Positions 5,565 through 29,964 of a DNA stretch of 64,000 nt are shown piece by piece. This DNA comes from Allobosea sp. Leaf344 (GTDB taxonomy: Bacteria > Pseudomonadota > Alphaproteobacteria > Rhizobiales > Beijerinckiaceae), in NCBI RefSeq assembly GCF_001426225.1, contig NZ_LMRT01000014.1:136464-200463 (forward strand), written 5' to 3'. The notes under the pieces were generated by a model that worked only from the letters and a program-made list of their open reading frames with translations, was not told the DNA's origin and did no database searches. The first letter of the stretch is position 1. Each line of letters begins with the position of its first letter. Both the position numbers and the translations under genes were made by a program.

Positions 5565-5993
5565 ATGGAAGCCCAGCAACTGCATCGCGGTCGCCTGATC
5601 GACCATATCCAGCTGGTGGTCAGGGACCTCCCGGCCAGCCGCCGCTTTTACGAGGCGGTTTTCGCGGCCCTCGACATCCCGATCGGCGGCTCCGCCGATG
5701 ATCATTTTTGGGCCGACGAGCTCTTCATCTCCAGCGCCGACAGCAGTTCCGCACTCGGCGTGCTCACCGGGCGCCATCATCTGGCCTTTCAGGCGCGCGA
5801 TCGCGCCATGGTCGAGGCCTTTTACCGGGCCGGGCTGGCCCATGGCGGCCGCGACAATGGCGGCCCGGGCCTGCGCGACTATCATCCCGGCTATTACGCC
5901 GCCTTCCTGCTCGATCCCGACGACAACAACATCGAGGCCGTCTTCCACGGCCCGGCCGAGCGCAGCGCGGATTCGGTCGTCCTGCGCTTCTGA
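5565..5993 (+). CDS. VOC (glyoxalase/bleomycin resistance) family protein
   Basis: A 142-residue single-domain vicinal-oxygen-chelate protein. Two beta-alpha-beta-beta-beta halves can be followed: LIDHIQLVVRDLPASRRFYE at about residues 10-29, and the second half with GRHHLAFQA and the closing LLDPDDNNIEAVFHGP. His in HIQLV, His in RHHLAF and the late Glu in NNIEAV occupy the usual metal-ligand positions. GGAG at 5553-5556 is correctly spaced for ATG 5565. The substrate cannot be read from sequence. Confidence 0.85.
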   Translation: MEAQQLHRGRLIDHIQLVVRDLPASRRFYEAVFAALDIPIGGSADDHFWADELFISSADSSSALGVLTGRHHLAFQARDRAMVEAFYRAGLAHGGRDNGGPGLRDYHPGYYAAFLLDPDDNNIEAVFHGPAERSADSVVLRF

Positions 5994-6066
5994 GCGGGTT
6001 CCCGGTTCACTCAAGGGAACCGAGGGAGCGCGATCGCGTTGCCTTGCCAGCATTACAGGAGCAGTC

Positions 6067-6324
6067 ATGGGCATCATCACCACCATCATCATCGGCTTTT
6101 TGGCCGGTGTCGTCGCGAAATTCGTCACGCCGGGCTCCAACGAGCCTTCCGGCTTCATCCTGACCACGATCCTCGGGGTCATCGGCGCCGTGGTGGCGAC
6201 CTATCTCGGCCAGGCGCTCGGCTGGTATCGGCCGGGCGAGTCGGCAGGCTTTATCGGCGCGGTGATCGGCGCCGTGCTCCTGCTGGTGATCTGGGCGATG
6301 TTCAGCCGTCGCCGCACGGTCTGA
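6067..6324 (+). CDS. GlsB/YeaQ/YmgE family stress-response membrane protein
   Basis: An 85-residue protein with three hydrophobic segments (about residues 2-22, 31-51 and 60-80), separated by a short polar GSNEPSG loop. The glycine-rich, GxxG-packed helices and the repeat-like FLAGVVAKFV / IGAVVATYLG / IGAVIGAVLL are typical of the transglycosylase-associated GlsB/YeaQ group in the inner membrane. AGGAGC directly precedes ATG 6067. A strong hairpin at 6374-6401 closes the unit. Confidence 0.88.
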   Translation: MGIITTIIIGFLAGVVAKFVTPGSNEPSGFILTTILGVIGAVVATYLGQALGWYRPGESAGFIGAVIGAVLLLVIWAMFSRRRTV

Positions 6325-6373
6325 CGTCCGTCGAAAATACCGCGGCGGCCGCGCGGCGACCGCGGAAACGTTC

Positions 6374-6401
6374 AAGGGCCGGATCGTCAGATCCGGCCCT
6401 T
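6374..6401. terminator. Hairpin terminator after the GlsB-family gene
   Basis: A perfect 12-base stem, AAGGGCCGGATC at 6374-6385 paired with GATCCGGCCCTT at 6390-6401, has a GTCA tetraloop. Only a short T-rich tail (TGTT) follows on the plus strand. It sits between the GlsB gene and the minus-strand small gene and could serve both directions. Confidence 0.7.
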
Positions 6402-6457
6402 GTTCATGACATCAGTGATGTGGTCCCGCCGCGAGCACGACCATCCGCGGTCGACGG

Positions 6458-6559
6458 CTAAACCCAGGACGCGGCGCCCGGTATGGGCAGCGCGACGCAG
6501 CAGATGAACGCCAGGAACAGGGCCACGAGGATCCAGGCTGCGAGATAGATGTAGGTCAT
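6458..6559 (-). CDS. Possible 33-residue single-span membrane peptide
   Basis: A short minus-strand frame encodes MTYIYLAAWILVALFLAFIC followed by CVALPIPGAASWV. It is a single strong membrane helix with a small polar tail. The ribosome binding site is weak, so expression is uncertain. It lies between the bidirectional hairpin and the dienelactone hydrolase gene. It is kept because the hydrophobic pattern is clean; it may be a chance frame. Confidence 0.35.
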   Translation of the reverse strand: MTYIYLAAWILVALFLAFICCVALPIPGAASWV

Positions 6560-6642
6560 GGGTACGGTGAGCCGGCTGAATAGGCAGCCAACGCGCGCCG
6601 CGCTGCAAAGTTCGCCACGGATTCCGATAAGCCGGACGCGTT

Positions 6643-7320
6643 TCAGGCGAGATGGCGACCGAGGAAGGCGGCGGTCCGGGTGGCGGCGTCGCGCTGCGCG
6701 GCCTGGCCGAAGCCGTGGCCTTCGCCGGGATAGATGCGCTTCTCGACCGGGACGCCCCTTGACCGCAGCAGCGCCTCGATGCTGTCGGCATTCGCCACGG
6801 GCACGATCCGATCGGCGTTGCCGTGCAGGATCAGCGTCGGCGCCTTCGGACGGGCGCCGTCGAGATCTCGCGGGCGGAAGCCGAAATAGCTGACCACGGC
6901 CCTGATCCGAGCATCCTGCGCGGCCAAGGACAGCGCCAGCGCCCCGCCCAGCGAGATGCCGACCAGCGCCATCCGGCGCGGATCGATCGCCGGATCGGCG
7001 GCCGCCTCGTCGAGGATCGTCTTCAGCCGCGCCAGCCATTGCGGGTAGCGGGTGTGAATCTCACTGAGAGGCGCCGTGCCGCCGCCGCTGAAATAATGCG
7101 GGAACAGTACGGTATAGCCCTGTGCGGCCAACGCATTGGACGCGAAGACATAGGATTGGCGCTGGGTGACGCCATCGGCGCCGTGCAGCAGGATGATGCC
7201 GGGACGGCGCCCGCCGCCCGCGCCGTCGACACGGTCTATCGTCGCTGCCGCGGCCTGTCCGCCGGCGAGCAATGCTCCGCTCGCCCCGAGCAGGGCCTCG
7301 CGGCGGTTCAAGCCATCCAT
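6643..7320 (-). CDS. Dienelactone hydrolase family protein, exported
   Basis: A 225-residue alpha/beta hydrolase. The N-terminus MDGLNRREALLGASGALLAG with a following AAAA is a probable Tat signal. The core begins IILLHGADGVTQRQ. The nucleophile elbow is VGISLGG, with serine where classical dienelactone hydrolase has cysteine; the acid is in ILHGNADRIVP and the histidine in YPGEGHGFG. Serine and an exported location argue for a general esterase rather than a true dienelactone hydrolase. The next gene upstream on the strand (7334-7564) is only 13 bases away, so they are probably co-transcribed. Confidence 0.82.
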   Translation of the reverse strand: MDGLNRREALLGASGALLAGGQAAAATIDRVDGAGGGRRPGIILLHGADGVTQRQSYVFASNALAAQGYTVLFPHYFSGGGTAPLSEIHTRYPQWLARLKTILDEAAADPAIDPRRMALVGISLGGALALSLAAQDARIRAVVSYFGFRPRDLDGARPKAPTLILHGNADRIVPVANADSIEALLRSRGVPVEKRIYPGEGHGFGQAAQRDAATRTAAFLGRHLA

Positions 7321-7703: not shown

Positions 7704-8036
7704 ATGAGCCGCTTGCTGATTGCCGCCCTTTGCCTGAGCAGCCTCACCGGCTGTGTCCAGCGCACCGTCATCGTCGAGGAGACGGTGGCCTATCCCGTCG
7801 CGACGCGCGGCGTGCCGGTCGCGCCGCTCGAGGCCGACCCCTCCGTCAAGCGGATCCGCAATGACGGCCAGGGCGGGCTCATCCTCCCCGACGGCACCAT
7901 CGTCAGCGTCGACGGATCGGGCGGCTTCACGCTGCCCAATGGCGATTATGTCCGGCGGGACGCGCGCGGTGCGCTGAACCTCCCCAACGGGTCGCGCTGC
8001 CTTCCCGACGGCACATCCGGCTTCATCTGCCCCTGA
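7704..8036 (+). CDS. Lipoprotein with internal GG-x-LP-(D/N)G repeats
   Basis: A 110-residue lipoprotein. The signal MSRLLIAALCLSSLTGC ends in a lipobox (LTGC), so Cys17 should be acylated. The C-terminal half carries three or four short repeats: GGLILPDGTI, GGFTLPNGDY, GALNLPNGSR and a last CLPDGTSGFIC. ATG 7704 follows AGGAG; the longer frame from 7677 would spoil the signal. Such repeats usually form a small beta structure. Function is unknown. Confidence 0.75.
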   Translation: MSRLLIAALCLSSLTGCVQRTVIVEETVAYPVATRGVPVAPLEADPSVKRIRNDGQGGLILPDGTIVSVDGSGGFTLPNGDYVRRDARGALNLPNGSRCLPDGTSGFICP

Positions 8037-8164
8037 GGCGTCTCGGGCCGCTTATGCCCGCTCCTCATGCGACTGCGCGCCGCGGACATGCATCGCGGCC
8101 GCCAAACGGTGTAGACCGGTGATGCAGGGGCGCTGACAGGGACCGGCGGATCGCCGGACACGCG

Positions 8165-8788
8165 ATGGAACAGGCGAGCGGGCAGATCGAGGATGCAGGC
8201 GCGCTGCGTGAGCTGGTCGGGGCGGTCAATCCCCTGGCCGAGCGCAAGGTCCTGACCGCGCTCGACCGGCACTGCCGCGACTTCATCGCGCTGTCGCCTT
8301 TTCTCGTGCTGGCGAGCGCCGATGCGCAGGGCGGCGCCGATGCCAGCCCGCGCGGCGATGCGCCCGGCTTCGTCACCGTGCTGGACGACAGGACGCTGCT
8401 GATCCCCGACCGCCGCGGCAACAACCGCGTCGACAGCTATCTCAACGTGTTGGCCTCGCCCGGGGTGGGGCTGATCTTCTTCGTCCCCGGCGTCGCGGAG
8501 ACGTTGCGGGTCAACGGCACGGCCAGTCTCAGCCGGGACCCGGCCCTGCTCGCGCCTCTGGCGGTTCAGGATCGCGTGCCGACCCTGGGGCTGATCGTCG
8601 CGGTGCGCGAGGCATTCTTCCATTGCGGCAAGGCGCTGATCCGCTCGAAACTATGGGATCCGGAGACCAGGATCGAGCGCGGCCGCTTCCCCACGCTCGG
8701 CCGCATCATCGCTGACCAGACCCAGGCTGTGGACGCTGCCGAGGCCGAGGCCAATCTCGAGGAAGCCTACCGGACGCGGCTCTACTGA
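8165..8788 (+). CDS. PPOX-type FMN-dependent flavoprotein (MSMEG_1061-like)
   Basis: A 207-residue pyridoxamine-5'-phosphate-oxidase-like split-barrel protein. Core segments include FIALSPFLVLASADAQGGAD, the DASPRGD motif, TLLIPDRRGNNRVDSYLNVL and VGLIFFVPGVAETLRVNG, which together mark the subgroup annotated as pyridoxamine 5'-phosphate oxidase family, MSMEG_1061 type. It probably binds FMN or F420-like flavin as a dimer; the substrate is unknown. It stands alone, 128 bases after the lipoprotein. Confidence 0.85.
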   Translation: MEQASGQIEDAGALRELVGAVNPLAERKVLTALDRHCRDFIALSPFLVLASADAQGGADASPRGDAPGFVTVLDDRTLLIPDRRGNNRVDSYLNVLASPGVGLIFFVPGVAETLRVNGTASLSRDPALLAPLAVQDRVPTLGLIVAVREAFFHCGKALIRSKLWDPETRIERGRFPTLGRIIADQTQAVDAAEAEANLEEAYRTRLY

Positions 8789-8852
8789 GGGCCGCCGGGC
8801 CCGACATTCATCCCGCCGAGCCTTCTGGCGCGCCGGGACCAGGATTTTGCCG

Positions 8853-9284
8853 ATGACGAACGACCAGCCGACACGAGCCGCGCCGCAGGACTGGCCGCGC
8901 CTCCCGCCGATCCGCACCGGGGTCCGCGGCCTCTGCCCGCGCTGCGGCCGCGGCAAGCTCTTCGACGGCTTCCTGAAGCTGCGCCCCCGCTGCGAAGTGT
9001 GCGGGCTGGACTATGGCTTCGCCGACCCGGCCGACGGCCCGGCCTTCTTCGTCATGATGTTCGTCTGCGTGCCCGTCGTCGCTTTCGCGCTCTGGCTCGA
9101 ACTCGCCTATGAGCCGTCGGCCTGGGTGCATCTCGTGACCACGCTGCCGCTGATCGCGCTGACCTGCATCCCGCCCTTGCAGCCGCTGAAAGGCTGGCTG
9201 GTGGCGGCCCAATATTATCACAAGGCGGAAGAGGGCCGTCTCGCGGCGCCCGACCGCCCCGCCGATCCAGGGCCCGGCGGCTGA
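8853..9284 (+). CDS. DUF983 membrane protein
   Basis: A 143-residue protein. An N-terminal zinc-ribbon-like module (GLCPRCGRGKLFDGFLKLRP then CEVCGLDYG) is followed by two membrane helices (about residues 68-88 and 94-114, FVMMFVCVPVVAFALWLEL and HLVTTLPLIALTC). This is the diagnostic DUF983 layout. The C-terminal tail is proline-rich. ATG 8853 was chosen over a TTG six bases earlier. Function is unknown. Confidence 0.88.
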   Translation: MTNDQPTRAAPQDWPRLPPIRTGVRGLCPRCGRGKLFDGFLKLRPRCEVCGLDYGFADPADGPAFFVMMFVCVPVVAFALWLELAYEPSAWVHLVTTLPLIALTCIPPLQPLKGWLVAAQYYHKAEEGRLAAPDRPADPGPGG

Positions 9285-9358
9285 GGCCGCCGGCGCGGCG
9301 GGAGGACGGGCGCGGGGCCGCTCGGCGAGATCATCTCATCAGCAGCAGGAGCGGGTTC

Positions 9359-10108
9359 ATGGAACGGGAATTTGCCGGCAAGCGCGTCATCGTCATGGGT
9401 GGCAGCAGGGGCATCGGGCGCTCGATCGCGCTCGGCTTCGCCGCGGCCGGGGCCTCGGTCTCGATCTGCGCGCGCAACCCGGCGCCGCTCGAGGCGACGC
9501 GCCGCGAGATCGCGGCGCTGGGCGTGACCGCCCATGCCGCCAGTGTCGATCTCGCCGACGCCGCCGCGATCGCGGCCTATGTCCCGGACGCCGTGCAGGC
9601 GCTGGGCGGGCTCGATGTCCTCGTCAACAACGCTTCGGGCTTCGGCCAGGCGGATGACGAGGAGGGATGGGCGGCGTCGCTGAGCGTCGACATGCTGGCG
9701 GTGGTCCGCGGCAGCCATGCGGCGGTCCCGCATATGGGCTCGGGCGCCTCGATCATCAACATCTCGTCGATCTCGGCCCTGCGCGCCTCGTCCCGCGCGG
9801 CGCCCTATGGCGCCGTCAAGGCCGCCGTGATGCATTACACCGCCAGCCAGGCCAAGATGCTGGCGCGCCAGGGCATCCGCGTGAACTGCGTGGCCCCGGG
9901 CTCGATCGAGTTTCCCGGCGGCAGCTGGGAGGATCGCCGGACCTCGAATCCCGCGCTCTACCAGTCGACCCTGGCGAGCATCCCCTTTGGGCGCATGGGC
10001 CGGCCGGAGGAGGTGGCGCAGGTGGTTCTTTTCCTCGCCTCCGACAGAGCGAGCTGGGTCACCGGGCAGAGCATCGTGGTCGATGGCGGGCAATTGATCG
10101 GCCCTTGA
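9359..10108 (+). CDS. SDR family oxidoreductase
   Basis: A classical short-chain dehydrogenase of 249 residues. The cofactor motif GGSRGIGRS lies at about residues 15-23. NNAS is in VLVNNASGFG, catalytic Ser in NISSISALRA, and the YxxxK pair in YGAVK. The end (VTGQSIVVDGGQLIGP) is typical. Substrate specificity cannot be assigned. It is a monocistronic gene, with 85 bases before the esterase gene. Confidence 0.87.
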   Translation: MEREFAGKRVIVMGGSRGIGRSIALGFAAAGASVSICARNPAPLEATRREIAALGVTAHAASVDLADAAAIAAYVPDAVQALGGLDVLVNNASGFGQADDEEGWAASLSVDMLAVVRGSHAAVPHMGSGASIINISSISALRASSRAAPYGAVKAAVMHYTASQAKMLARQGIRVNCVAPGSIEFPGGSWEDRRTSNPALYQSTLASIPFGRMGRPEEVAQVVLFLASDRASWVTGQSIVVDGGQLIGP

Positions 10109-10193
10109 TCGATTGTGCAATGCAACATATCGGGGCGGGCGCAGTTAGGCTGAGGGTGGACCTTCCGGTTCGCTCTGGAAAGGACACCCCGCG

Positions 10194-11315
10194 ATGCCCA
10201 GTATCGCCGACACCATCGCCCGCCTGAAAGCCGTGCATACGCAGGCCGGCGGCGGGCCGAGCGCCATCCCCTCGCGCCTCGCAAGGCTCGGCGGCTTCGG
10301 CTCCAATCCCGGGGGGCTCGCGGCCTTCTGCCATGTTCCGCCGGGACTGCCGGCCCATGCGCCGCTGGTGGTCGTGCTGCATGGCTGCACGCAATCGGCG
10401 GCCGGCTACGACCATGGCTCCGGCTGGTCGCAGCTCGCGGACCGCCATGGCTTCGCATTGCTGTATCCGGAGCAGGCGCGCGAGAACAATCCCAATCTCT
10501 GCTTCAACTGGTTCCTCCCCGGCGACATCGGCCGCGAGGGCGGCGAGGCGCTGTCGATCGCCCAGATGGTGCGCCATATGCTGGCGACGCATCGTCTGGA
10601 TCCCCGCCGGGTCTTCATCACCGGCCTGTCGGCCGGCGGCGCGATGACCTCCGTGATGCTCGCGACCTATCCCGAGCTGTTCGCCGGCGGGGCGGTCATC
10701 GCCGGGCTTCCCTATGGCGTGGCGAGGACCGTGCCCGAGGCGCTGGATCGCATGCGCGGGCGCGGCCTGCCCGGCGCGTCGCAGCTGGAGTCGCTGGTGC
10801 GCGGCGCATCCGCCCATGAAGGCCCCTGGCCGAGCCTGTCGCTCTGGCATGGCAGCGCCGACCCGACCGTGACGGCCGCCAATGCCGAAGCCGTGCTGGC
10901 GCAATGGCGCGGCCTGCACGGGTTGCGGCAGGTGGAGCCGGTGCGGAGCGCGATCGGCCGGCACAGCCGGCTGGTCTGGCATGACCGGGCGGGGACGCCA
11001 AAAATCGAATCCTTCACCCTCGCCGGCATGGGCCATGGCACCCCGCTGAGCGGGACCGACGATCTCGGCCATCCCGGCGCCTATATGCTCGATGTCGGCA
11101 TTTCCTCGACGCGGCACATCGCCCGCTTCTGGCAGATCACGCCGGCCGAAGCCGCGCTGGAGGAGACGGCGAGGGAGCAGCCCACGGCCCAGCCCGCAGC
11201 CCAGCCCGCCAGGCCGTTCCCGGGCGCGGCCCGGCCCGGCGGACAGGCCGCGCCGAGCGCCGGCGTCGGCAAGGTGATCGAGGACGCGCTGCGCGCGGCC
11301 GGCCTGATGCGCTGA
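10194..11315 (+). CDS. PHB depolymerase family esterase
   Basis: A 373-residue alpha/beta hydrolase of the PHB-depolymerase esterase family. The oxyanion-hole motif is in VVVLHGCTQSAAGYD, nucleophile Ser is in FITGLSAGGAM at about residue 144, Asp is in WHGSADPTV at about 221, and His is in AGMGHGTPL at about 280. There is no clear secretion signal, so an intracellular depolymerase or an acetyl/feruloyl-type esterase is possible. After about residue 320 comes a Pro/Ala-rich linker and a short KVIEDALRAAGLMR tail often seen in the family. Confidence 0.88.
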   Translation: MPSIADTIARLKAVHTQAGGGPSAIPSRLARLGGFGSNPGGLAAFCHVPPGLPAHAPLVVVLHGCTQSAAGYDHGSGWSQLADRHGFALLYPEQARENNPNLCFNWFLPGDIGREGGEALSIAQMVRHMLATHRLDPRRVFITGLSAGGAMTSVMLATYPELFAGGAVIAGLPYGVARTVPEALDRMRGRGLPGASQLESLVRGASAHEGPWPSLSLWHGSADPTVTAANAEAVLAQWRGLHGLRQVEPVRSAIGRHSRLVWHDRAGTPKIESFTLAGMGHGTPLSGTDDLGHPGAYMLDVGISSTRHIARFWQITPAEAALEETAREQPTAQPAAQPARPFPGAARPGGQAAPSAGVGKVIEDALRAAGLMR

Positions 11316-19832: not shown

Positions 19833-20969
19833 TCAGCCCCCGCCCGGCTGCCCACCGCCGATCGCATCGGGGGCCGGATCGGGCGAGGCCTGCCGCGCCG
19901 GCCGCCCGCGCATCACATAGCTGTCGACCCGTTCGCGCTGCGTCAGATGCTCCACGCGATCGTGGAAAGGCGACAGCACGCAGACCGGGTCGGCATTGCG
20001 GGCATCCCCGGTCAGCGCCATCGCCTGGCAGCGGCAGCCGCCGAAATCGATCTCGCGCCGGTCGCAGCTGCGGCAGGGCTCGGCCATCCAATCCGTGCCG
20101 CGAAACGCGGCGAAGGCCGGGGATTCCTGCCAGATCTCGGCCAGATCATGCTCCCTGACGCTCCAGAAGACGAGGCCGGGGATGGTCTGCGCCGCGTGGC
20201 AGGGCAGCACCAGCCCACGCGGCGTCACGTTGAGCGACTGCCGGCCCCAGCCATTCATGCAGGGTTTCGGATAGCGCGCGAAATGATCGGGCGGGACGTA
20301 GTCGATGGTGATGCGGGAGGCCGTCGCCACGCGCAGCGCCGCGACCTGGTCGCGCGCGGCCAAGGCATCGGCCATGTCGGGCATCAGCGCATCGCGGTTG
20401 CGGGCCGCCCAGCCGTAATATTGCGCATGCGCCAGCTCGATCCGGCCTGCGCCCATGGCGATGGCCTCGTCGACCATCGCCGCCATGCGCGAAAGATTGC
20501 CGCGATGCAGGACGGCGTTGACCGTCAGCGGCAGCCCGGCAGCGATGACCAAGGTCGCGAAATCCCGCTTGCGGCGATGCGCCCCGGCGAGACCGGCGAC
20601 ACGGTCGGCATTGCGCTCCTCGGTATCCTGGATCGAGAGCTGGACATGGTCGAGCCCGGCCTCGGCGAGAGCGCCCAGCCGGTCGCGATCGAGCCCGATC
20701 CCGGAGGTGATCAGGTTGGTATAGAGCCCGGCATCGGCGGCCGCCGCGACGAGTTCGGTGAGATCGGCGCGGGCCGCGGGTTCGCCGCCGGAGAGATGCA
20801 GCTGCAAGATGCCGAGATCGGCGGCCTGGCGAAACACGCGGATCCAGTCGGCGGTGGCGAGCTCCTCCGCCTTCCGGTCGAGCTCCAGCGGGTTGCTGCA
20901 ATAGGGGCAGGACAGCGGACAGCGATGCGTCAGCTCGGCCAGCAAAGCGAAGGGCGGCGGCGCGCTCAT
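19833..20969 (-). CDS. pqqE: PqqE, radical SAM peptide cyclase for PQQ
   Basis: A 378-residue radical SAM enzyme. CPLSCPYCSN (about residues 17-26) is the CxxxCxxC cluster site, and HLSGGEPAARADLTELV holds the GGEP SAM-binding motif. The C-terminal SPASM part supplies auxiliary cluster cysteines in KPCMNGWG, LPCHAAQ, EPCRSCDRREIDFGGCRC and DPVC. With PqqD it forms the Glu-Tyr carbon-carbon bond in PqqA. The ATG overlaps the pqqD stop by four bases. It is the last gene of the operon, and the tail after about residue 350 is low-complexity. Confidence 0.95.
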   Translation of the reverse strand: MSAPPPFALLAELTHRCPLSCPYCSNPLELDRKAEELATADWIRVFRQAADLGILQLHLSGGEPAARADLTELVAAAADAGLYTNLITSGIGLDRDRLGALAEAGLDHVQLSIQDTEERNADRVAGLAGAHRRKRDFATLVIAAGLPLTVNAVLHRGNLSRMAAMVDEAIAMGAGRIELAHAQYYGWAARNRDALMPDMADALAARDQVAALRVATASRITIDYVPPDHFARYPKPCMNGWGRQSLNVTPRGLVLPCHAAQTIPGLVFWSVREHDLAEIWQESPAFAAFRGTDWMAEPCRSCDRREIDFGGCRCQAMALTGDARNADPVCVLSPFHDRVEHLTQRERVDSYVMRGRPARQASPDPAPDAIGGGQPGGG

Positions 20970-21238
20970 GTCTCGACCAGACGTCGCGCCATTAGATCCG
21001 CCAGAAGCGCGCGGACATCCTGCGCGATGCGCTCTCGCTCGCCCTGATAAGTCGAGGCCAGGATCTCCGCGATCTCATCGATGCCACGGGCGCCGTCGCA
21101 GAGCGCCAGGATCGCGGCCGAGGAGGCGTTGACGCGCAGCACATGCTCGGGCGCCAGCAGATTATGCCCGCCGCGAACCCGGTCCTCGCGCAGCCTGACC
21201 CCCTTTGCCAGCATCGGGCGGGCGTCGGGGCCGATCAT
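20966..21238 (-). CDS. pqqD: PqqD, PQQ peptide chaperone
   Basis: A 90-residue RiPP recognition element protein (start MIGPDARPMLAKGVRLREDR). VRGGHNLLAPEHVLRVNASS, then AILALCDGARGIDEIAEIL, follow the PqqD family pattern. It delivers PqqA to PqqE. Its ATG at 21238 overlaps the pqqC stop; the frame extends upstream but into pqqC, so this start is the sensible one. Confidence 0.94.
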   Translation of the reverse strand: MIGPDARPMLAKGVRLREDRVRGGHNLLAPEHVLRVNASSAAILALCDGARGIDEIAEILASTYQGERERIAQDVRALLADLMARRLVET

Positions 21239-21969
21239 GGCGCCCCGCCCGGCTGGAAGGCGCCGGGCGGGATCTGGCCGGCCGGGCCATAGGCATGGTC
21301 GAGCGCATCGAGCATCGCCCAGAGCACGTCGCATTTGAATTCGAGCGCGGCGACCACCGCATCCTGCAGGTCCGGGGTCGTGGCATGGGCGGCGACATAG
21401 GCGAGCGCGCTCTCGACATCGCGCGACGCCTGTTCCGGACGGGCCGTGAAATAGGCCAGGCTCTCGGCGCTGACGAAATCATAATGTGCCAGCATGCCGG
21501 AGACCCGCGTCTTGATGACCTGGGGCGAGAACAGCTCCGTCAGCGAGGAGGCCACGGCCTCGAGCAGCGGCCGCTCGCGGACGAAGGCGACATAGGCATC
21601 GACGGCGAAGCGCGTCGCCGGCAGCACGCCCCGATGCGCGATCACCGCGTCGCGGGCGAAGCCGAGGCTCTCGCAGAGCCGCAGCCAGCGCTCGATGCCG
21701 CCCTCGCCATCGGCCGCGCCGTCATGGTCGATGAGCCGCTGGCGCCAGGCCCGGCGCAGGGCGGGATCGTCGAGGCGCGCGATCAGGCTGGCGTCCTTGC
21801 GCGGGATCGCCGCCTGATAGGCATAGCGGTTCAGCGCCCAGGCCTGGACCTCGCTTTTGCTGCAGCCACCTGAATGCAGCCGCAGATGGAAGGGGTGGCG
21901 GTCGTGATAGCGTCTGGCACCGACCTCGCGCAGGCGGTCGAGGAGAGCGGGAGCGGAGAGGGCGGTCAC
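21235..21969 (-). CDS. pqqC: PqqC, pyrroloquinoline-quinone synthase
   Basis: A 244-residue helical oxidase that carries out the last ring closure and eight-electron oxidation to PQQ. YHDRHPFHLRLHSGGCSKSE near residues 21-40, NRYAYQAAIPRKDASLIARL and SSLTELFSPQVIKTRVSGML are strongly conserved PqqC segments containing active-site His, Arg, Tyr and Lys residues. Its start overlaps the pqqB stop and its stop overlaps the pqqD start, so the whole set is translationally coupled. Confidence 0.95.
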   Translation of the reverse strand: MTALSAPALLDRLREVGARRYHDRHPFHLRLHSGGCSKSEVQAWALNRYAYQAAIPRKDASLIARLDDPALRRAWRQRLIDHDGAADGEGGIERWLRLCESLGFARDAVIAHRGVLPATRFAVDAYVAFVRERPLLEAVASSLTELFSPQVIKTRVSGMLAHYDFVSAESLAYFTARPEQASRDVESALAYVAAHATTPDLQDAVVAALEFKCDVLWAMLDALDHAYGPAGQIPPGAFQPGGAP

Positions 21970-22850
21970 AGCGGGATCTCCAGCCCGTCATAGCCGATCT
22001 CGACCCCGGCGCTCTCGACATGGCGACGCTCGCGGGACCCCTCGATCAGCACGGGGTTGCTGTTGTTGATGTGGATATAGATCTTGCGGGCGGCGGGCAG
22101 CTCCGCCAGCCAGGCGAGCGAACCGCCCGGACCGGTCATCGGCACATGGCCCATCCTGCGCCCGGTCTTCTCGCCGAGCCCCATCCGCAGCATCTCGTCA
22201 TCCTCGAACAGGGTGCCGTCGCAGAGCACGATATCGGCCCGCGACACCCATGCCGCGAGATCGGGCGTGAGTTCCGCGCAGCCCGGGATATAGGCGAGGC
22301 GCCTCTCGGGCCCTTCGACCAGCAGCCCGCAGGCCTCGCCCGCCAGTGCGGCCGGTTCGCTGTCTCCGGTTTCGAGATAGAGCGGCGCCTTGCCGGGAAC
22401 GGGAACCAGCGTGATCCGCATCTCCCGCGTCACCTCCAGAACCTCTCCGGCCGCGACGGTGCGGCGGCTCGCCATCAGCGGGGCGAAGAGCGGGTTGTCG
22501 GCGATGGCGGCCTGTACGGGAGCCAGCGCCAGCACGGCGAAGGCGTGCCGCTCGCGCAGATGCGCCAACCCAGCGATATGGTCGATCTCGGCGCTGGTCA
22601 GCACCACCGTATGGATCGGGGAGCGGCGCGTGGCGATCGGCCAGAGCGCCGTCGTCTTGCGCAATTGTTCGCCGAGATCAGGCGAGGCATTGACCAGGAC
22701 GCAGCCATCCCCGTCGAGCAGCGCCAGCGAGGATTGCGTGCGCCAGGTCGCGCGGGGATCGCCGGCCCAGGCCAGCGCGCAATTGGCGCATCGGCAGTTC
22801 CATTGCGGAAAGCCGCCGCCCGCGGCCGAACCGAGAACGACGGCCTTCAT
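21966..22850 (-). CDS. pqqB: PqqB, PQQ biosynthesis hydroxylase (metallo-beta-lactamase fold)
   Basis: A 294-residue protein starting MKAVVLGSAAGGGFPQWNCR, the hallmark opening of PqqB. CRCANC near residues 19-24 is the conserved cysteine knuckle. VVLTSAEIDHIAGLAHLRER replaces the HxHxDH of true lactamases with SAEIDH, as expected. YIHINNSNPVLIEGS at the end is also typical. It acts on the PqqE product before PqqC. The gene begins eight bases after the pqqA stop. Confidence 0.95.
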   Translation of the reverse strand: MKAVVLGSAAGGGFPQWNCRCANCALAWAGDPRATWRTQSSLALLDGDGCVLVNASPDLGEQLRKTTALWPIATRRSPIHTVVLTSAEIDHIAGLAHLRERHAFAVLALAPVQAAIADNPLFAPLMASRRTVAAGEVLEVTREMRITLVPVPGKAPLYLETGDSEPAALAGEACGLLVEGPERRLAYIPGCAELTPDLAAWVSRADIVLCDGTLFEDDEMLRMGLGEKTGRRMGHVPMTGPGGSLAWLAELPAARKIYIHINNSNPVLIEGSRERRHVESAGVEIGYDGLEIPL

Positions 22851-23084: not shown

Positions 23085-24248
23085 CTATTCCGCGAGTTCG
23101 CGCATCACCTTGATCAGGTCGCTCTTGCCTTCGAAGCCGATGCCCGGCAGCTCCGGCATGACGATATGGCCGTCCTCGACCCGGACGCCGTCGGGAAAGC
23201 CGCCATAGGGCTGGAACAGATCGGGATAGCTCTCATTGCCGCCGAGCCCCAGCCCGGCCGCGATGTTCAGCGACATCTGATGCCCGCCATGCGGGATGCA
23301 GCGCGCCGGCGACCAGCCGAATTGCTGCAGCACGTCGAGCGTGCGCAGATATTCGACCAGCCCATAGGACAAGGCGCAGTCGAACTGCAGAAAGTCGCGG
23401 TCCGGGCGCATCCCGCCATAGCGGAGCAGGTTGCGCGCATCCTGATGCGAGAACAGATTCTCTCCCGTGGCCATCGGCCCGGGATAGAACTCCGAGAGCG
23501 CCGCCTGAAGCGCGTAATCCAGCGGATCGCCCGCCTCCTCGTACCAGAACAGCGGATATTGCCGCAGCATTTCCGCATAGGCGATGCCGGTCTTGAGATC
23601 GAAACGGCCATTGGCATCGACGGCGAGCCTGGCCTGCGCGCCGATTTCCGCCAGCACGGCCTCGATCCGGCGCTGGTCCTCGGCGATCGAGGCGCCGCCG
23701 ATCTTCATCTTGACGACGGTGTAGCCGCGATCGAGATAGCTGCGCATCTCGGCGCGCAGCTGCGCATCGTCCTTGCCGGGATAGTAATAGCCGCCGGCGG
23801 CATAGACGAAGACCCGCGGATCGGCCTCGCGGCCCTTCTGCTCGGCCAGCAGGCGAAACAGCGGCTTGCCGGCGATCTTCGCGGTCGCGTCCCAGATCGC
23901 CATGTCGAGCGTCCCGACGGCGACCGAGCGCTCGCCATGGCCGCCCGGCTTCTCGTTGACCATCATCGCCGCCCAGAGCCTGTGCGGGCAGAGACTATCG
24001 CCGGCTTCGTTGAGAACGCTGTTCGGCTCGGCCTGGAGAAGCCGGTCGCGGAAGCGCTCGCGGATCAGGCCGCCCTGTCCATAGCGGCCATTGGAGTTGA
24101 AGCCGTAGCCGACGACCCGCCGGCCATCACGCTCGACATCGGTGACCACGGCGACGAGGCTCGCGGTCATCTTCGAGAAATCGATATAGGCGTTGCGGAT
24201 GGGCGAGGCGATCGGCTTGGTGACCTCGCAGACGTCGACGATACGCAT
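23085..24248 (-). CDS. tarD: D(-)-tartrate dehydratase, enolase superfamily
   Basis: A 387-residue member of the mandelate racemase subgroup. It begins MRIVDVCEVTKPIASPIRNA. The general base lysines lie in VVKMKIGG at about residue 180, metal ligands in LAVDANGRFD, FWYEEAGDPLDY and MATGENLFSH, and the acid histidine in RCIPHGGHQMSLN at about residue 322. NAYIDFSKMT, GYGFNSNGRYGQGGLIRERF and PGPMATGENLFSHQDARNLL are near-identical to remembered rhizobial D-tartrate dehydratase (tartrate to oxaloacetate). AGGGAGA precedes ATG 24248. A LysR regulator is divergent, 145 bases away. Confidence 0.88.
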   Translation of the reverse strand: MRIVDVCEVTKPIASPIRNAYIDFSKMTASLVAVVTDVERDGRRVVGYGFNSNGRYGQGGLIRERFRDRLLQAEPNSVLNEAGDSLCPHRLWAAMMVNEKPGGHGERSVAVGTLDMAIWDATAKIAGKPLFRLLAEQKGREADPRVFVYAAGGYYYPGKDDAQLRAEMRSYLDRGYTVVKMKIGGASIAEDQRRIEAVLAEIGAQARLAVDANGRFDLKTGIAYAEMLRQYPLFWYEEAGDPLDYALQAALSEFYPGPMATGENLFSHQDARNLLRYGGMRPDRDFLQFDCALSYGLVEYLRTLDVLQQFGWSPARCIPHGGHQMSLNIAAGLGLGGNESYPDLFQPYGGFPDGVRVEDGHIVMPELPGIGFEGKSDLIKVMRELAE

Positions 24249-24393
24249 GAAATTCTCCCTGTCCCGCATGCAGATTCGGCATCGACCAAGCTCGGGCTTG
24301 ATCGGAAAGGCGCGGCGGATTCGAGGCATAAGGCTGGACCAACCAGCAATCCAATGCCAAATTCGGTTCCTGCTATGCTCGAACGGCACTGAC
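24249..24393. promoter_or_regulatory. Divergent promoter/operator between tarD and the LysR gene
   Basis: 145 bases between divergent genes, the usual place of LysR control. An inverted repeat CAAGC-TCGG-GCTTG lies at 24287-24300, flanked by ATCGAC and ATCGG. TGGACCAACCAGCAATCC near 24341-24358 could also belong to an operator. No experimental site is known to me. Confidence 0.4.
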
Positions 24394-25302
24394 ATGGATT
24401 ATGATTGGCTGTCGGATTTCGAGGCTTTGGCGCAGCATCGAAACTTCTCGCGGGCTGCCGCCGCTCGCAACGTCACGCAACCGGCGTTCGGCCGCAGGAT
24501 ACGCGCTCTGGAAGAGTGGATCGGCGCCATTCTGTTCGAACGGACACCGCAAGGCGCGCGCCTGACGGCGGCGGGCGAGCACTTTCAGCCCCACGCGCGC
24601 GACCTGCTGAACATCCTCGATCGGGCCAGGCGCGAAACGCGCGTGATCGGCGAGCGCAACACCACCGCACTCACCATCGCGGCGACGCATGCCCTGTCTT
24701 TCACATTCTTCCCCGGCTGGATCCGGCGGGCCATGCAGGCGCAGGCGCTCGGCGCAATCAACCTGATCTCGGATAGCATGGCGGCGTGCGAGCAGCTGAT
24801 GCTCTCCGGCGAGGCCCAATTCCTGCTCTGCCACGTCCATCAGGCTGTCGCCCCGCCATTCGCGGCGGACCGTTTCGCCAGTATGCGCATCGGGGACGAC
24901 GTGCTTCTGCCGCTCTGCGCACCCAATGAGAGCGGGGGGGCCAGATGGGCACTGCCCGGCACCGCAGCAGAGCCGACGCCGTTTCTCGGCTACAGCCAAG
25001 CCTCGGGTCTCGGGCGGATCATCGCTGCTTGCGGCGGACTGCATATCGGCGCGTCGGCGACCAACCTGACATCCCATCTCGCCGCGACCCTGGCGACGCT
25101 GGCCCGTGATGGGCATGGCGTCGCATGGTTGCCGCTGACCCTCGCGGCGGAGGATCTGGACTGTGGCCGCCTGGTCCGTGCCGGGTCGGACCACTTGGAT
25201 ATTCCGGTCGAGATACGACTGTTCCGATCGCCGGACAGGCTGAATGAAGCGGCAGAGGATCTATGGACTGGTGCATGTCATCACTCTCAGGAGCGACGCT
25301 GA
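24394..25302 (+). CDS. LysR-family transcriptional regulator
   Basis: A 302-residue regulator. The N-terminal winged helix-turn-helix is clear (LSDFEALAQHRNFSRAAAAR followed by NVTQPAFGRRIRALEEWIGA), with residues 90-290 forming the LysR effector domain. ATG 24394 gives the standard start MDYDWLSDFEAL. It is divergent from tarD, so it probably regulates tartrate use, with D-tartrate or a related acid as inducer; that is inference from position. Confidence 0.87.
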   Translation: MDYDWLSDFEALAQHRNFSRAAAARNVTQPAFGRRIRALEEWIGAILFERTPQGARLTAAGEHFQPHARDLLNILDRARRETRVIGERNTTALTIAATHALSFTFFPGWIRRAMQAQALGAINLISDSMAACEQLMLSGEAQFLLCHVHQAVAPPFAADRFASMRIGDDVLLPLCAPNESGGARWALPGTAAEPTPFLGYSQASGLGRIIAACGGLHIGASATNLTSHLAATLATLARDGHGVAWLPLTLAAEDLDCGRLVRAGSDHLDIPVEIRLFRSPDRLNEAAEDLWTGACHHSQERR

Positions 25303-25683: not shown

Positions 25684-26889
25684 ATGAAAATTCTACGGCT
25701 TTTTGCGGGTCTGATCTTATTACTTGGTGGGCTTTATGTTCTCATCGGCGAACACTTTGCCGGTACGTCAGCGGACGCCACCGTCAATGCGCGGATCACC
25801 GTCATCCGTGCGCCGATCGAAGGCGTCGTCTCACTGGCGGTGCGCAGCATCGGCGCGCGCGTCAGGGCAGGGGAGCTGATCGCCGACATCGTCGACGACC
25901 GGTTCGACACCGCCCGGCTGATCGATCTCGAACGGCAATCGGATAGCCAAAAGCTCGAGGCGAAGCGCGCCGCGGCGCAGAAGCTCGCTCTGATCCAGGC
26001 CCGCGACGGTTTCGCGGCGCAGCTCGTCAGCTATCAGAAGGGCCGCATCGGGCAGATCGAGGCGCGGCTGGCGGAGGCGCGCGCCGCGCAGGACGCCTCG
26101 GCGGCACGGCTGCGGGAAGCCGAGGGCACCCTGCGCCGCGCCAATGAGCTCAACGATCGCGGGGTCCAGACCGCCGCCAATCTCGAACGCTCGCGCGCCG
26201 CCTCGGATGTGGCGCAGCAGGAGCTCGAAAGCGCCAGGCAGCGCAGCAACTACCTCACCACCGAGCTGGCCGCGGCGCGCACCGGCGTCTTCATCGGCGA
26301 TTCCTACAATGACGCCCCCTTCTCCTCGCAGCGCGTCCGCGAGCTCGATCTCAGACTGGCGGAGCTCGAGGCGGAGCAGGCCCAGCACGAGGCACGGGTG
26401 GCGCTGCTGGAGCGGCAGATCGCGGCGGAGCGGGTGCGCATCAACCGCCTGACCTCGGCCTCGCTGACGACGCGGGTCACCGGCATGGCCTGGGATTTCC
26501 TGATCGACGACGGCGAATATGCCCGCCGCGGGCAGGATCTCGTCCGGCTCGTCGATTGCAGCACGCTGATCGTCACGGCCGGCGTCACGGAATCGCTCTA
26601 TGACAGCCTCTCGATCGGCTACCCCGTGCAGTTCCGGCTGTTCGGCGACGAGCGCGTCTTCGACGGCACCGTAACGAGGCTCGGCGGCTCCGGCGCGACC
26701 AGCCTCTACGCCAATCTCGCGGTGGGGCCGAGCGCCGAGCATTTGCAGCGCTTCGACGTCACGGTCAGCGTGCCCGCGCTCGCCGCCCAGAACGATCTGA
26801 GCTGCGCGATCGGCCGCACCGGCCGGGTGATCTTCAGCAGCGGCCCGATCGCCACCATGCGCCGCTTCCTGACCCGCTACGGGTTCTGA
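25684..26889 (+). CDS. HlyD-family membrane fusion protein, exopolysaccharide type
   Basis: A 401-residue protein. A short cytoplasmic start is followed by one membrane helix at about residues 6-24 (LFAGLILLLGGLYVLIGEHF). VIRAPIEGVVSLAVRSIGAR starts the biotinyl-lipoyl-like half-motif; about residues 85-265 are a long coiled coil rich in Ala, Glu and Arg; the beta-barrel follows (TRVTGMAWDFLIDDGEYARR). The layout resembles Alg44-type adaptors but without a PilZ domain. The stop overlaps the next start in TGATG, so it is coupled to the GT2 synthase. It should bridge the periplasm for polysaccharide export. Confidence 0.8.
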   Translation: MKILRLFAGLILLLGGLYVLIGEHFAGTSADATVNARITVIRAPIEGVVSLAVRSIGARVRAGELIADIVDDRFDTARLIDLERQSDSQKLEAKRAAAQKLALIQARDGFAAQLVSYQKGRIGQIEARLAEARAAQDASAARLREAEGTLRRANELNDRGVQTAANLERSRAASDVAQQELESARQRSNYLTTELAAARTGVFIGDSYNDAPFSSQRVRELDLRLAELEAEQAQHEARVALLERQIAAERVRINRLTSASLTTRVTGMAWDFLIDDGEYARRGQDLVRLVDCSTLIVTAGVTESLYDSLSIGYPVQFRLFGDERVFDGTVTRLGGSGATSLYANLAVGPSAEHLQRFDVTVSVPALAAQNDLSCAIGRTGRVIFSSGPIATMRRFLTRYGF

Positions 26890-28856
26890 TGCTGGCGCTG
26901 CCGCCTCTGCTCTCGGCCTTCGCGGGCACCGCCGTGGTGCTCGGCCTGCGCCTGCTCCTGCTGCCGCACCTCGATCCCAGGCGCTGGTACTGGCGCGCGC
27001 TGCTGCTCGGCGGCGCCACGCTCCTGGCCTGGCGCTACATGGCCTGGCGCCTGACGGAGACCACCGCGCCGCTGGCCTGGAGCTGGGACGCGCTGTTCAG
27101 CTGGAGCTTCGCGATCCTGGAGGCGCTGACCGTCCTCTCCTCATCGGTCGCCTTCTTCATCCTGTCCCGCGTCAAGGACCGCAAGCAGGAAGCGAGCCTG
27201 CACGCGCAATGGTGGCGCCCGAAACCGCCGCCGCGGGTCGACATCTTCATCGCCACCTATAATGAACAGCTCGAAGTGCTGGAGCGGACCATCATCGGCG
27301 CCAAGGCCTCGGCGTTCCCGGTCAATGTCTTCGTGCTCGACGATGGCCGCAGGCCCTGGCTGGCCGAGGCCTGCCGACGCTTCGGGGTCGGCTACTTCGC
27401 CCGGCCCGACAATGCCCATGCCAAGGCCGGCAACATCAATTACGCCCTGAACGCCCGACGCGACGCAGCCGACGCACCCGATTTCGTCGCGGTGCTCGAC
27501 GCCGATTTCGTTCCCCATGTCGATTTCGTCGATCGGGCGCTGGCGCTGTTCCACGACCCCTCGGTCGGGCTCGTGCAGACCCCGCAGCATTTCTTCAACC
27601 CCGATCCGATCCAGCACAATCTCGGCATCAGCTCGGCCTATCCGGACGAGCAGCGGCACTTCTTCGACAATGTCGAACCCGCCCGCGACGCCTGGGGCAT
27701 CGCCATCTGCTGCGGCACCTCCTCCATGGTCCGCACCATTGCCGTGCAGGAGATCGGCGGGCTGCCGACCGAAAGCGTCACGGAGGATTTCCTCCTGACG
27801 CTGCGGCTGGCCGAACATGGCTGGAAGACCGTCTACCTCAACGAGGCGCTGACCGAGGGGCTCGCCCCCGAAGGGCTGCAGGAGTACATCGTCCAGCGCG
27901 GCCGCTGGTGCCTGGGGATGATGCAGATCGTCCGGAACGTCTACGGCCCCTTCGGCCGCCACCGCCTGTCCTTCATGCACCGCCTCAGCGTCTTCGATTC
28001 CCTGCTCTACTGGAACACGACCTTCGCGTTCCGCCTCGCCGGGATCATCTGCCCGCTGCTCTACTGGTGGGGCGGCGTCACGGTCGTGAACGCGTCGCTG
28101 GCCGACATCATCATCTATTACTGCCCTTATTACATCGCCGTGATGGCGACGCTGAACTGGCTGTCGAAGGGGCTGTTCATCCCGGTGGTGAACGATGTCG
28201 GCCAGCTCGTCGCCGCCTGGCCGATCACCCGCGCCGCCGCGACCGGGCTCCTGACCAAGGGCCCGCATAAATTCTCGGTGACCGCGAAGGGCGGCGACCG
28301 CACCCGGATCGTCGTGCAATGGCCGCTGATGTGGCCGTTCCTCGTGCTGTTCGCGCTCACGGTCGGCGGGCTGCTGGTCAATCTCCGCTCCGACTTCCTT
28401 TTCAACAATGCCGGGACGGCCGGCGACGGCATGGTCGTCGTGATGTTCTGGACGATCTACAACCTCTTCGTCCTGCTGGTGGTGATCGCGGCCTGCGTCG
28501 AGCGCCCGCGCCTCAACCAGCCGCAGCGCCAGGTGCTGCAGCGCGTCGTCCTCGAGACGCAGGGGCGCGAGCTGCGCGGCTGGCTCGTCAGCCTCGGCAC
28601 CGACCATGCCCGGATCAGCGGCCCGGTCGGGCTGGCCAAAGGCCAGCCGGCCGCGTTGCGCCTGCCGATCATCGGCGCGATTGCCGGGCGGGTCCGCGAC
28701 ACCACGCGGGACGGCTATCTCATCGACCTCGAGCCCAGCGACGACCAGCGCAGCCTGATCATCGCCAAGCTGCACACCGCCTCGCTCACGCCCGGCACGG
28801 ACAAGGGCGATATCGGCCTGATGATCCGCGAATTGGCGCGGGCGCTCACTCGCTAG
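26889..28856 (+). CDS. Cellulose-synthase-like family 2 glycosyltransferase
   Basis: A 655-residue polymerising membrane GT2. Two N-terminal helices are followed by the catalytic domain with all processive motifs: VLDDGRR (about residue 152), VLDADFVP (204-206), VTEDFLL (about 298) and QRGRW (336-340). Then come about five membrane helices (about residues 375-560). After about residue 550 a PilZ-like tail may exist (VERPRLNQPQR, then SLGTDHARISGPVG); it lacks the canonical spacing of RxxxR and DxSxxG, so c-di-GMP binding is uncertain. It most resembles cellulose synthase catalytic subunits, but the polymer could be another beta-glucan or mannuronan-like glycan. Confidence 0.85.
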   Translation: MLALPPLLSAFAGTAVVLGLRLLLLPHLDPRRWYWRALLLGGATLLAWRYMAWRLTETTAPLAWSWDALFSWSFAILEALTVLSSSVAFFILSRVKDRKQEASLHAQWWRPKPPPRVDIFIATYNEQLEVLERTIIGAKASAFPVNVFVLDDGRRPWLAEACRRFGVGYFARPDNAHAKAGNINYALNARRDAADAPDFVAVLDADFVPHVDFVDRALALFHDPSVGLVQTPQHFFNPDPIQHNLGISSAYPDEQRHFFDNVEPARDAWGIAICCGTSSMVRTIAVQEIGGLPTESVTEDFLLTLRLAEHGWKTVYLNEALTEGLAPEGLQEYIVQRGRWCLGMMQIVRNVYGPFGRHRLSFMHRLSVFDSLLYWNTTFAFRLAGIICPLLYWWGGVTVVNASLADIIIYYCPYYIAVMATLNWLSKGLFIPVVNDVGQLVAAWPITRAAATGLLTKGPHKFSVTAKGGDRTRIVVQWPLMWPFLVLFALTVGGLLVNLRSDFLFNNAGTAGDGMVVVMFWTIYNLFVLLVVIAACVERPRLNQPQRQVLQRVVLETQGRELRGWLVSLGTDHARISGPVGLAKGQPAALRLPIIGAIAGRVRDTTRDGYLIDLEPSDDQRSLIIAKLHTASLTPGTDKGDIGLMIRELARALTR

Positions 28857-28866
28857 GGGACAGGAC

Positions 28867-29964
28867 ATGGCAGCCAGACGAGCGCTTCGCGCGAAACGCC
28901 CCGGCCTCCGGACCTGGGTCATCATCGGCGGTGCGCTGCTGATGCTGATCCCTGCGGTCACGGCCGGCAGCTTCTATACCGGCACATTGCAGCGCCGCTC
29001 CGAGGAGCTGCTCGTCGACAAGCTGACGGGACGCGGCGAACTCAGCGCCGGCCTGCTGGCGCGTCGCCTCCACCAGCTCTGGCTGCAGGTCGAAGCCTTT
29101 TCGCGCACGGTCGACATCGCCCGGCTCGACAAGGTGCGCGAGCAGATCGACTTCATCGGCGACCTCGACCAGCGCTATTCCTGGATCGGCATCGCCAATG
29201 TCGACGGCAAGGTCCTGGCGGCGAGCCGCGGCATGCTGGAGGGGGCGAGCGTGGCGCAGCGCCCCTGGTTTCGCCGCGGGCTGACCGGACCGACCGCGGT
29301 CGACGTTCATGAGGCGCAGCTGCTGGCACAGCTGCTGCCCCAGCGCGCCGAGCCGCCGCGCTTCATCGACCTCGCCGCCCCGGTCAAGCAGGATGGCGGG
29401 GCGACGCTCGGCGTGCTGGGCGCGCATCTCGACTGGCGCTGGGTGATCGAGAACCTGGCCAGCATGCAGGCGCCGGGCATCGACGTCCTGCTCCTGTCGC
29501 GCGAGCGCACGGTGCTCTACGGGCCGCCGGACCTCGTCAACAAGCCGCTCACCGTCGGGTCCGCCCTGTCGGCGAACCGGGCGACCTCGATCGTCCTCGA
29601 CGAGCGCTGGCCCGACGGGAAGGACTATATCACCGTGGTCATCCCGGCGGTCGGCCACGACAATCTCCCGAGCTTCGGCTGGTCGCTGCTCATCCGGCAG
29701 GACCGGGACGCCGCGCTGCGACCGACGCGCGACCTCGTCCGCAGTTTCTGGACGATGCTGGGCGCCGGCGCCCTGGTCGCGATCATCCTGCTCGCTCTGG
29801 GCGCGCAATGGATCACCACGCCGCTGCGGCGCCTGGCCGGATCGGCCGAGGCCATCCTGGACGATCCCGAGGCGGGCGCTCCCCATGTCGAGACCCGCTA
29901 TGACGAGGCCGCGCGCCTCTCCGACGCGCTGGTCAGGCTGCAGAATGCGAACAGCAAACAGTGA
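28867..29964 (+). CDS. dCache-HAMP membrane sensor without an output domain
   Basis: A 365-residue protein with a first membrane helix at about residues 16-37, a periplasmic double-Cache domain (about 40-290, including YSWIGIANVDGKVLAASRGM and RPWFRRGLTGPTAVDV), a second helix at about 296-318 and a HAMP-like end (QWITTPLRRLAGSAEAILDD). It stops right after HAMP; there is no kinase, GGDEF, EAL or methyl-accepting domain. It starts ten bases after the GT2 gene, so it is the third gene of the operon and may sense an extracellular ligand for the synthase. Confidence 0.78.
   Translation: MAARRALRAKRPGLRTWVIIGGALLMLIPAVTAGSFYTGTLQRRSEELLVDKLTGRGELSAGLLARRLHQLWLQVEAFSRTVDIARLDKVREQIDFIGDLDQRYSWIGIANVDGKVLAASRGMLEGASVAQRPWFRRGLTGPTAVDVHEAQLLAQLLPQRAEPPRFIDLAAPVKQDGGATLGVLGAHLDWRWVIENLASMQAPGIDVLLLSRERTVLYGPPDLVNKPLTVGSALSANRATSIVLDERWPDGKDYITVVIPAVGHDNLPSFGWSLLIRQDRDAALRPTRDLVRSFWTMLGAGALVAIILLALGAQWITTPLRRLAGSAEAILDDPEAGAPHVETRYDEAARLSDALVRLQNANSKQ

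Follow-up and report, generated by a model that had tools for sequence, protein, structure and literature searches.

A conserved HlyD, GT2 and dCache-HAMP gene unit that may couple a beta-glucan synthase directly to a receptor without an output domain

Introduction

Bacterial cellulose-synthase-like glycosyltransferases are classic targets of c-di-GMP. In Allobosea sp. Leaf344, a stretch of 64,000 nucleotides of contig NZ_LMRT01000014.1 (hereafter the window) encodes such a family 2 glycosyltransferase (GT2) between an HlyD-type adaptor and a membrane receptor that combines a dCache and a HAMP domain and then ends. What can a receptor with no signalling domain of its own do for the synthase next to it? 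Such a protein would likely switch the enzyme by direct contact, and we infer that the signal passes straight from receptor to synthase. We propose that the three genes form a conserved unit, a beta-glucan synthase-exporter switched via receptor contact with no second messenger, a reading that we hold to be about evenly poised between right and wrong.

Results

Gene content of the locus

Three genes make up the unit:

25684..26889, + strand: HlyD-type periplasmic adaptor, 401 aa (ORF call; Pfam HlyD_3, E 2.5e-11, and HlyD_D23)
26889..28856, + strand: cellulose-synthase-like GT2, 655 aa (ORF call; Pfam Glyco_tranf_2_3, E 4e-22)
28867..29964, + strand: stand-alone dCache-HAMP receptor without output domain, 365 aa (ORF call, Pfam, predicted structure)

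The first-pass annotation read them as one tight operon, and the reading frames, their Pfam assignments and their spacing confirm this: the HlyD stop and the GT2 start overlap (TGATG), and the dCache-HAMP gene begins 10 bp past the GT2 stop. No sigma-70-like promoter was found at the operon and the sole terminator-like site lies within the GT2 gene, so the operon assignment is one of spacing only. A LysR regulator gene lies upstream of the unit and an esterase-like gene downstream, the latter with no match across the best 80 of 424 GT2 loci described below. TolC-type proteins are encoded in the same genome (8 matches in 4 frames). Elsewhere in the window, pqqB, pqqC, pqqD and pqqE (pyrroloquinoline quinone) occupy the minus strand at 19836-22850, and an enolase-superfamily sugar-acid dehydratase that scores under every NCBIfam cut-off is encoded at 23088-24395, adjoining a gene for a HypT-like LysR regulator.

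The synthase

27231..27911, + strand: GT2 catalytic domain, residues 115-341 (DD 151-152, DAD 204-206, TED 298-300, QRGRW 336-340)
28272..28289, + strand: gating-loop motif FSVTAK (FxVTxK), residues 462-467 (family alignment)
28509..28853, + strand: C-terminal tail with PilZ-like fold, residues 541-655, lacking RxxxR, D/NxS/AxxG and the BgsA c-di-GMP loop

The catalytic key residues are invariant or nearly so across the family alignment. In the gating loop, whose FxVTxK motif is named in the accessible part of PMC5567048, residues F462, V464, T465 and K467 are invariant in 45 aligned rows. The alignment with BcsA extends to residue 655 and so takes in the PilZ-like barrel, for which the predicted structure has six strands and a helix at 551-629. 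The suspicion of a PilZ-like tail raised by the first-pass annotation is thus borne out for the fold and fails for the c-di-GMP signature, whose five positions read N, R, S, G and H in the window GT2.

The protein scores 387.5 bits against the NCBIfam CelA model and does not reach its cut-off of 699.1. Judged by sequence, Q233, Q255 and R266 put its channel entrance closer to CrdS and BgsA than to BcsA. Of the channel residues that might tell the linkage type of the glucan, R266 is BgsA-like, and D370, D436 and Q439 fit neither BgsA nor CrdS. GT2 and HlyD are predicted to make and export a linear beta-glucan, and a family 8 glycoside hydrolase (GH8) that accompanies the unit in ten loci fits a product with beta-1,4 links.

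The receptor

29116..29715, + strand: periplasmic dCache domain, residues 84-283 (Pfam dCache_1, E 2.6e-11)
29812..29949, + strand: HAMP domain, residues 316-361 (predicted structure; last helix with A354, R357 and Q359)

The dCache_1 match, at 44 bits, is slightly below the Pfam cut-off of 45; the fold is supported by the structure model and by an alignment in which the full-length McpB model matches receptor residues 10 to 365. Pfam makes no HAMP call in this protein; the structure model (pLDDT 94.9) has the second transmembrane segment (TM2) and both HAMP helices (to 332; 346-364), and the protein ends there. P319 and E347 are almost invariant in 58 relatives. At E <= 1, Pfam finds no kinase, GGDEF, EAL or MCP domain, in agreement with the first-pass description of a protein without kinase, cyclase or chemotaxis domain.

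The pocket residues D146, H148 and A150 are common to the receptor and to dCache-HAMP-GGDEF cyclases across the class (L036-L061), so ligand work on either would inform the other. In the part of PMC10104139 accessible to us, the amino-acid binding motif of dCache_1AA domains consists of Y121, R126, W128, Y129, Y144 and D173; receptor residues R132, W134 and F135 align by eye with R126, W128 and Y129, three of the six positions. Five further residues, W72, P260, A354, R357 and Q359, are conserved in the stand-alone family and not in the fused relatives. The last three lie at the HAMP end, which is the likely contact zone.

More distant dCache-HAMP relatives are GGDEF fusions or have long, kinase-length tails, and one may ask whether the gene is what decay has left of a sensor cyclase. 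Relatives fused to GGDEF and broken copies in genome G408 (L171), and perhaps in the metagenome-assembled genome (MAG) of L118, speak for such decay. Yet in 79 of 79 loci the stand-alone protein carries no output domain and ends 0-33 residues past the HAMP model, and in 77 of them it measures 357-405 aa; the other two are L088 (319 aa) and L118, where the gene runs across two frames. The stand-alone rows also form one 54-row clade (see below). A single clade with a constant end after HAMP makes this an old conserved form and not a local truncation, the point on which the first-pass annotation had wanted a check. With length, pocket residues, HAMP residues and clade all conserved, truncation and pseudogene readings are largely ruled out, and decay from a cyclase is barely credible.

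Distribution and gene order

GTDB species genomes were scanned with the GT2 alignment, and the best 80 of 424 confirmed stretches were kept. One of the two scan patterns, LDADFVPH, includes the clade-specific H210, so these 80 loci lean to the GT2 clade of the unit; outsiders were sampled by other routes. The HlyD model matches directly ahead of the GT2 gene in 80 of 80 loci (split over two frames in L086 and L088), and 79 of these best 80 of 424 have a stand-alone dCache-HAMP gene. In the eightieth, L084, homology stops inside the GT2 gene and 300 bp of unrelated DNA lead to the contig end, so the state of the dCache gene there cannot be read. The gene set singled out in this one window is therefore recurrent.

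Four gene orders occur. HlyD-GT2-dCache is found in 31 loci (Bosea, Bradyrhizobium, Microvirga and others), dCache-HlyD-GT2 in 10 (mostly Acetobacteraceae and Roseomonadaceae), a convergent arrangement in 35 (Rhizobiaceae, Rhodobacterales, Azospirillum and others) and a divergent one, with a GH8 gene in between, in 3 (Maritimibacter). An association kept through all four is unlikely to be drift.

The same orders bear on the idea that the receptor forms mixed dimers and so signals to a kinase, a phosphatase or a chemoreceptor array encoded elsewhere, its location reflecting a shared role only. Domains of the dCache type do serve as inputs of kinases, cyclases and chemoreceptors, and the HAMP region gives a weak match to the phosphatase SiaA (E 0.015). 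However, in 38 of 79 loci (35 convergent, 3 divergent) the gene orientation rules out a common transcript of receptor and synthase, and the link persists nonetheless. The identified recurring neighbour clusters showed neither a kinase nor a chemoreceptor or phosphatase. We consider this explanation very unlikely.

In the genus of the window, 4 of 36 other genomes encode a GT2 of 75-78% identity, each together with the dCache gene. Among 146 Bradyrhizobium genomes, which belong to a single genus and are not independent draws, the GT2 type of the unit is present in 16 (959-1098 bits) and the stand-alone dCache gene in 15 (412-471 bits, frames of 345-376 aa); the 15 all fall among the 16, with the genes within about 135 bp, and the sixteenth GT2 match stops at residue 594, the same place as the break in L084. 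The 130 Bradyrhizobium genomes without this GT2 type have no stand-alone dCache gene at E <= 1e-60. Other dCache matches in the genus score no higher than 217 bits and sit in fused frames of 586-727 aa. A second Bradyrhizobium GT2 type (53 places, 720-746 bits) has no stand-alone dCache gene adjoining it. Together with L063, L151 and L008, these 53 places represent a second uncharacterised HlyD-GT2 pair without dCache, which bears PilZ in the three members checked and shares some genomes with the dCache unit.

Outside the clade, 12 GT2 loci (L160-L170 and L028 of Sinorhizobium meliloti; about 7-10 kb of flank) have no stand-alone dCache gene nearby; L163 gives one weak dCache match of 23 bits. 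A class-wide sample of 385 genomes, in which we scored the five best dCache and three best GT2 candidates per genome (13 and 8 in the genus searches), yielded two GT2s of the unit type, in the Allobosea genome itself and in G408, and both adjoin a dCache gene. In G408 (L171, about 5942-7129) the dCache gene is split between two frames beside an intact GT2, which is of Azospirillum type and keeps the PilZ signature. A protein search scored 7998 candidates, and we considered the best 120 of its 206 matches.

Among plasmid loci with the GT2 type, a sample biased by having been picked partly from dCache matches, 8 of 9 have the dCache gene. The Pacificitalea plasmid L027 has GH8, HlyD and GT2 with no PilZ signature and no dCache gene of the unit type on its record, and the Salipiger plasmid L034 has a stand-alone dCache-HAMP gene (5962-7059) with no related GT2 on its record. 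Locus L053 (genome G235) has a stand-alone dCache-HAMP frame of 365 aa with no GT2 match in its short flanks. L139, on an Arenimonas MAG contig, closely resembles a Ciceribacter locus, and that contig is probably misbinned.

Shared history of synthase and receptor

The GT2 tree was built from the window plus 96 of 123 collected rows; L001, L084 and 25 near-duplicates were omitted. The dCache-linked GT2s form one 80-row clade (SH-aLRT 99, quick search), of which L027 is the sole member without dCache. For the dCache tree we took the window, 47 of the 79 scan loci and 6 plasmid loci, added 24 rows that are fused or lie outside, and omitted L055, L059 and L060. All 54 stand-alone dCache rows linked to the GT2 family form one clade (SH-aLRT 99) that branches from within GGDEF- and kinase-length fusions. 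L053 falls outside it, and output-less dCache-HAMP proteins may have arisen more than once.

Both trees have the same backbone, with Azospirillum first, then Acetobacteraceae-type rows, and later a split between a Bosea-Bradyrhizobium-Microvirga group and a Rhizobiaceae-Rhodobacterales group. Of 45 well-supported GT2 splits, the dCache tree shares 32 and contradicts 4. This shared branching order presumably differs from that of the species tree, which suggests that the GT2 and dCache genes moved together.

Across 72 of the 80 loci, tree distances of dCache agree best with those of HlyD (Pearson r 0.944, Spearman 0.917) and less with those of GT2 (0.844), an agreement that we take as support only because neighbours correlate anyway. 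The closer fit may mean that the adaptor is the partner. The receptor might then act on periplasmic HlyD and not on the GT2, sensing the growing glucan or the state of export and gating release. Both proteins have periplasmic parts, and the dCache gene lies directly ahead of HlyD in 10 loci. Against this, distances may correlate between two fast-evolving proteins that share a unit and do not touch, and a kept HAMP domain with conserved cytoplasmic residues would have no obvious use. HlyD as the target is in our judgement clearly unlikely.

c-di-GMP sites and neighbouring genes

The PilZ and BgsA-loop motifs were counted in the GT2 clade with four short proteins excluded (L084, L086, L088, L138). 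The complete PilZ signature is missing from 88 of 91 members; all five positions are intact in L026, L062 and L135, which are basal and of Azospirillum type. They are also intact in six of the seven best-scoring GT2s without dCache (L008, L063, L151 and L064-L066; not L007), and not all intact in BgsA, CrdS and L153. BgsA, CrdS and L007 lack both the PilZ signature and an adjoining dCache gene, so loss of PilZ needs no dCache partner.

The synthase could bind c-di-GMP some other way, by analogy with BgsA, which does so without a PilZ motif (PMC5567048, accessible part). In that case c-di-GMP would still run the enzyme via an undescribed site, and the receptor would be a local scaffold that recruits a diguanylate cyclase or phosphodiesterase encoded elsewhere or pairs with one. 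The cyclase DgcJ touches NfrB (PMC8669469, accessible part), and relatives of our receptor bear GGDEF. Moreover, GGDEF or EAL genes flank the unit in 16 of 80 loci (14 with GGDEF), where a density of 209 GGDEF genes in 50.15 Mb (9 genomes) predicts about 3, and a gene for an HD-GYP-type protein adjoins L135. But ten of the 16 loci come from Bradyrhizobium and do not count as independent; we judge the enrichment weak because most loci share one genus. In the 64-kb window, models built from seven neighbour proteins find no GGDEF or EAL match, and the Allobosea genome has no close dCache paralogue or dCache-GGDEF partner for pairing (next match 57 bits). Most of the tested BgsA loop is also missing. 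In the accessible part of PMC5567048, R599 and H615 of S. meliloti BgsA are required for c-di-GMP binding; the clade GT2s have a gap at R599 (91 of 91), R605 (90 of 91) and D608 (91 of 91), and the H615 column holds His in 2 of 91. We regard the scaffold explanation as possible and rather unlikely.

As for other genes, BcsB queries (pieces from four genomes, Pfam-confirmed) detect each other and match nothing in the 80 GT2 loci; the window operon itself has no BcsB gene among its reading frames and Pfam matches. The claim that the unit has neither BcsB nor a hydrolase gene therefore holds for BcsB, including among homologous loci, and has to be qualified for the hydrolase, since a GH8 gene recurs in 10 loci, all assigned to Rhodobacterales (Pfam run on two). 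ABC transporters are among the neighbours in 8 loci. In L110 (Pararoseomonas), a PAS-GGDEF-EAL gene at 7992-10493 directly follows the GT2 gene.

Discussion

We proposed that the receptor switches the synthase by contact. In such a mechanism, a small ligand would bind the periplasmic dCache domain, TM2 and HAMP would relay the change inward, and the last HAMP helix (the region of A354, R357 and Q359) would touch the GT2 on its cytoplasmic side, perhaps at the degenerate PilZ barrel. This contact would release or impose inhibition, and HlyD with a TolC-type outer-membrane protein would carry the polymer out.

Historically, a dCache-HAMP-GGDEF cyclase may once have locally fed a PilZ-bearing GT2, much as DgcJ feeds NfrB. 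PilZ would have been present at the outset, the cyclase would then have been lost or an output-less receptor gained, and the PilZ signature would have been lost later. Removal of the cyclase could have left a contact between sensor and glycosyltransferase of the kind described for DgcJ-NfrB. Our proposal is that direct contact with the receptor took over control from c-di-GMP. In its full form this scenario has three parts: a sensor stripped of its cyclase, a synthase that has shed its c-di-GMP site, and an extracellular ligand that now serves as allosteric switch of the processive synthase itself. It is tentative and, in our estimate, somewhat short of an even chance.

If true, there would be a second way to switch synthases of the c-di-GMP class, via a private output-less receptor, and a simple two-protein system in which HAMP signalling could be read directly as polymer synthesis. 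The unit also marks an uncharacterised beta-glucan synthase family in many genera of Hyphomicrobiales, Rhodobacterales and Rhodospirillales-type bacteria, with one copy carried by the At plasmid of Agrobacterium fabrum C58.

Comparison with known systems

The first-pass annotation knew of no described system with this arrangement. We found no report of a dCache-HAMP gene paired with HlyD-GT2 in the openly accessible literature, and to that extent the claim stands; the synthase-adaptor pair itself does have a counterpart. BgsBA of S. meliloti and Rhizobium etli, which makes a mixed-linkage beta-glucan of alternating beta-1,3 and beta-1,4 links, likewise has an HlyD gene followed by a GT2 of 650-670 aa with a short cytoplasmic tail, BgsA and the window GT2 are 41% identical in the core, and synthase and adaptor would work like BgsBA. 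We do not file the unit as BgsBA because clade and c-di-GMP residues both fail: the BgsA rows L028 and L009 fall outside the 80-row clade (SH-aLRT 99, quick tree), and the c-di-GMP-binding loop of BgsA is missing from the GT2 of the unit. There is also no dCache match of the unit type on the whole S. meliloti pSymB record, and none is annotated in the R. etli bgsBA region examined.

CrdASC of Agrobacterium, which makes curdlan, has a related GT2 of 654 aa and an adaptor-like first gene; we identified its loci L152 and L166 by the three-gene order and the published CrdS residue numbers. CrdS shares Q233 and Q255 with the GT2 of the unit, whereas its specific H374, W422 and H442 correspond to D370, M419 and Q439, and it belongs to a separate clade; its locus has no dCache gene in 18.5 kb. 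The cellulose synthases (BcsA) have the same whole-length fold, PilZ-like barrel included, but also form a separate clade; the GT2 of the unit lacks their PilZ signature, has no BcsB (80 loci) and has channel-entrance residues of CrdS/BgsA type.

On the receptor side, we considered RprR of Ralstonia as a counterpart and dropped it, since by the part of its description accessible to us it carries GGDEF and EAL. In the accessible parts of PMC8669469 and PMC8669472, DgcJ-NfrB of Escherichia coli is a dCache membrane sensor serving one glycosyltransferase by direct contact; that pair depends on the activity of a GGDEF domain in DgcJ, whereas the sensor of our unit has none. Finally, the accessible part of PMC6821405 places a functionally uncharacterised GT2 'clade 4' in the same tree as CrdS and BgsA, and this clade may contain the GT2 of the unit.
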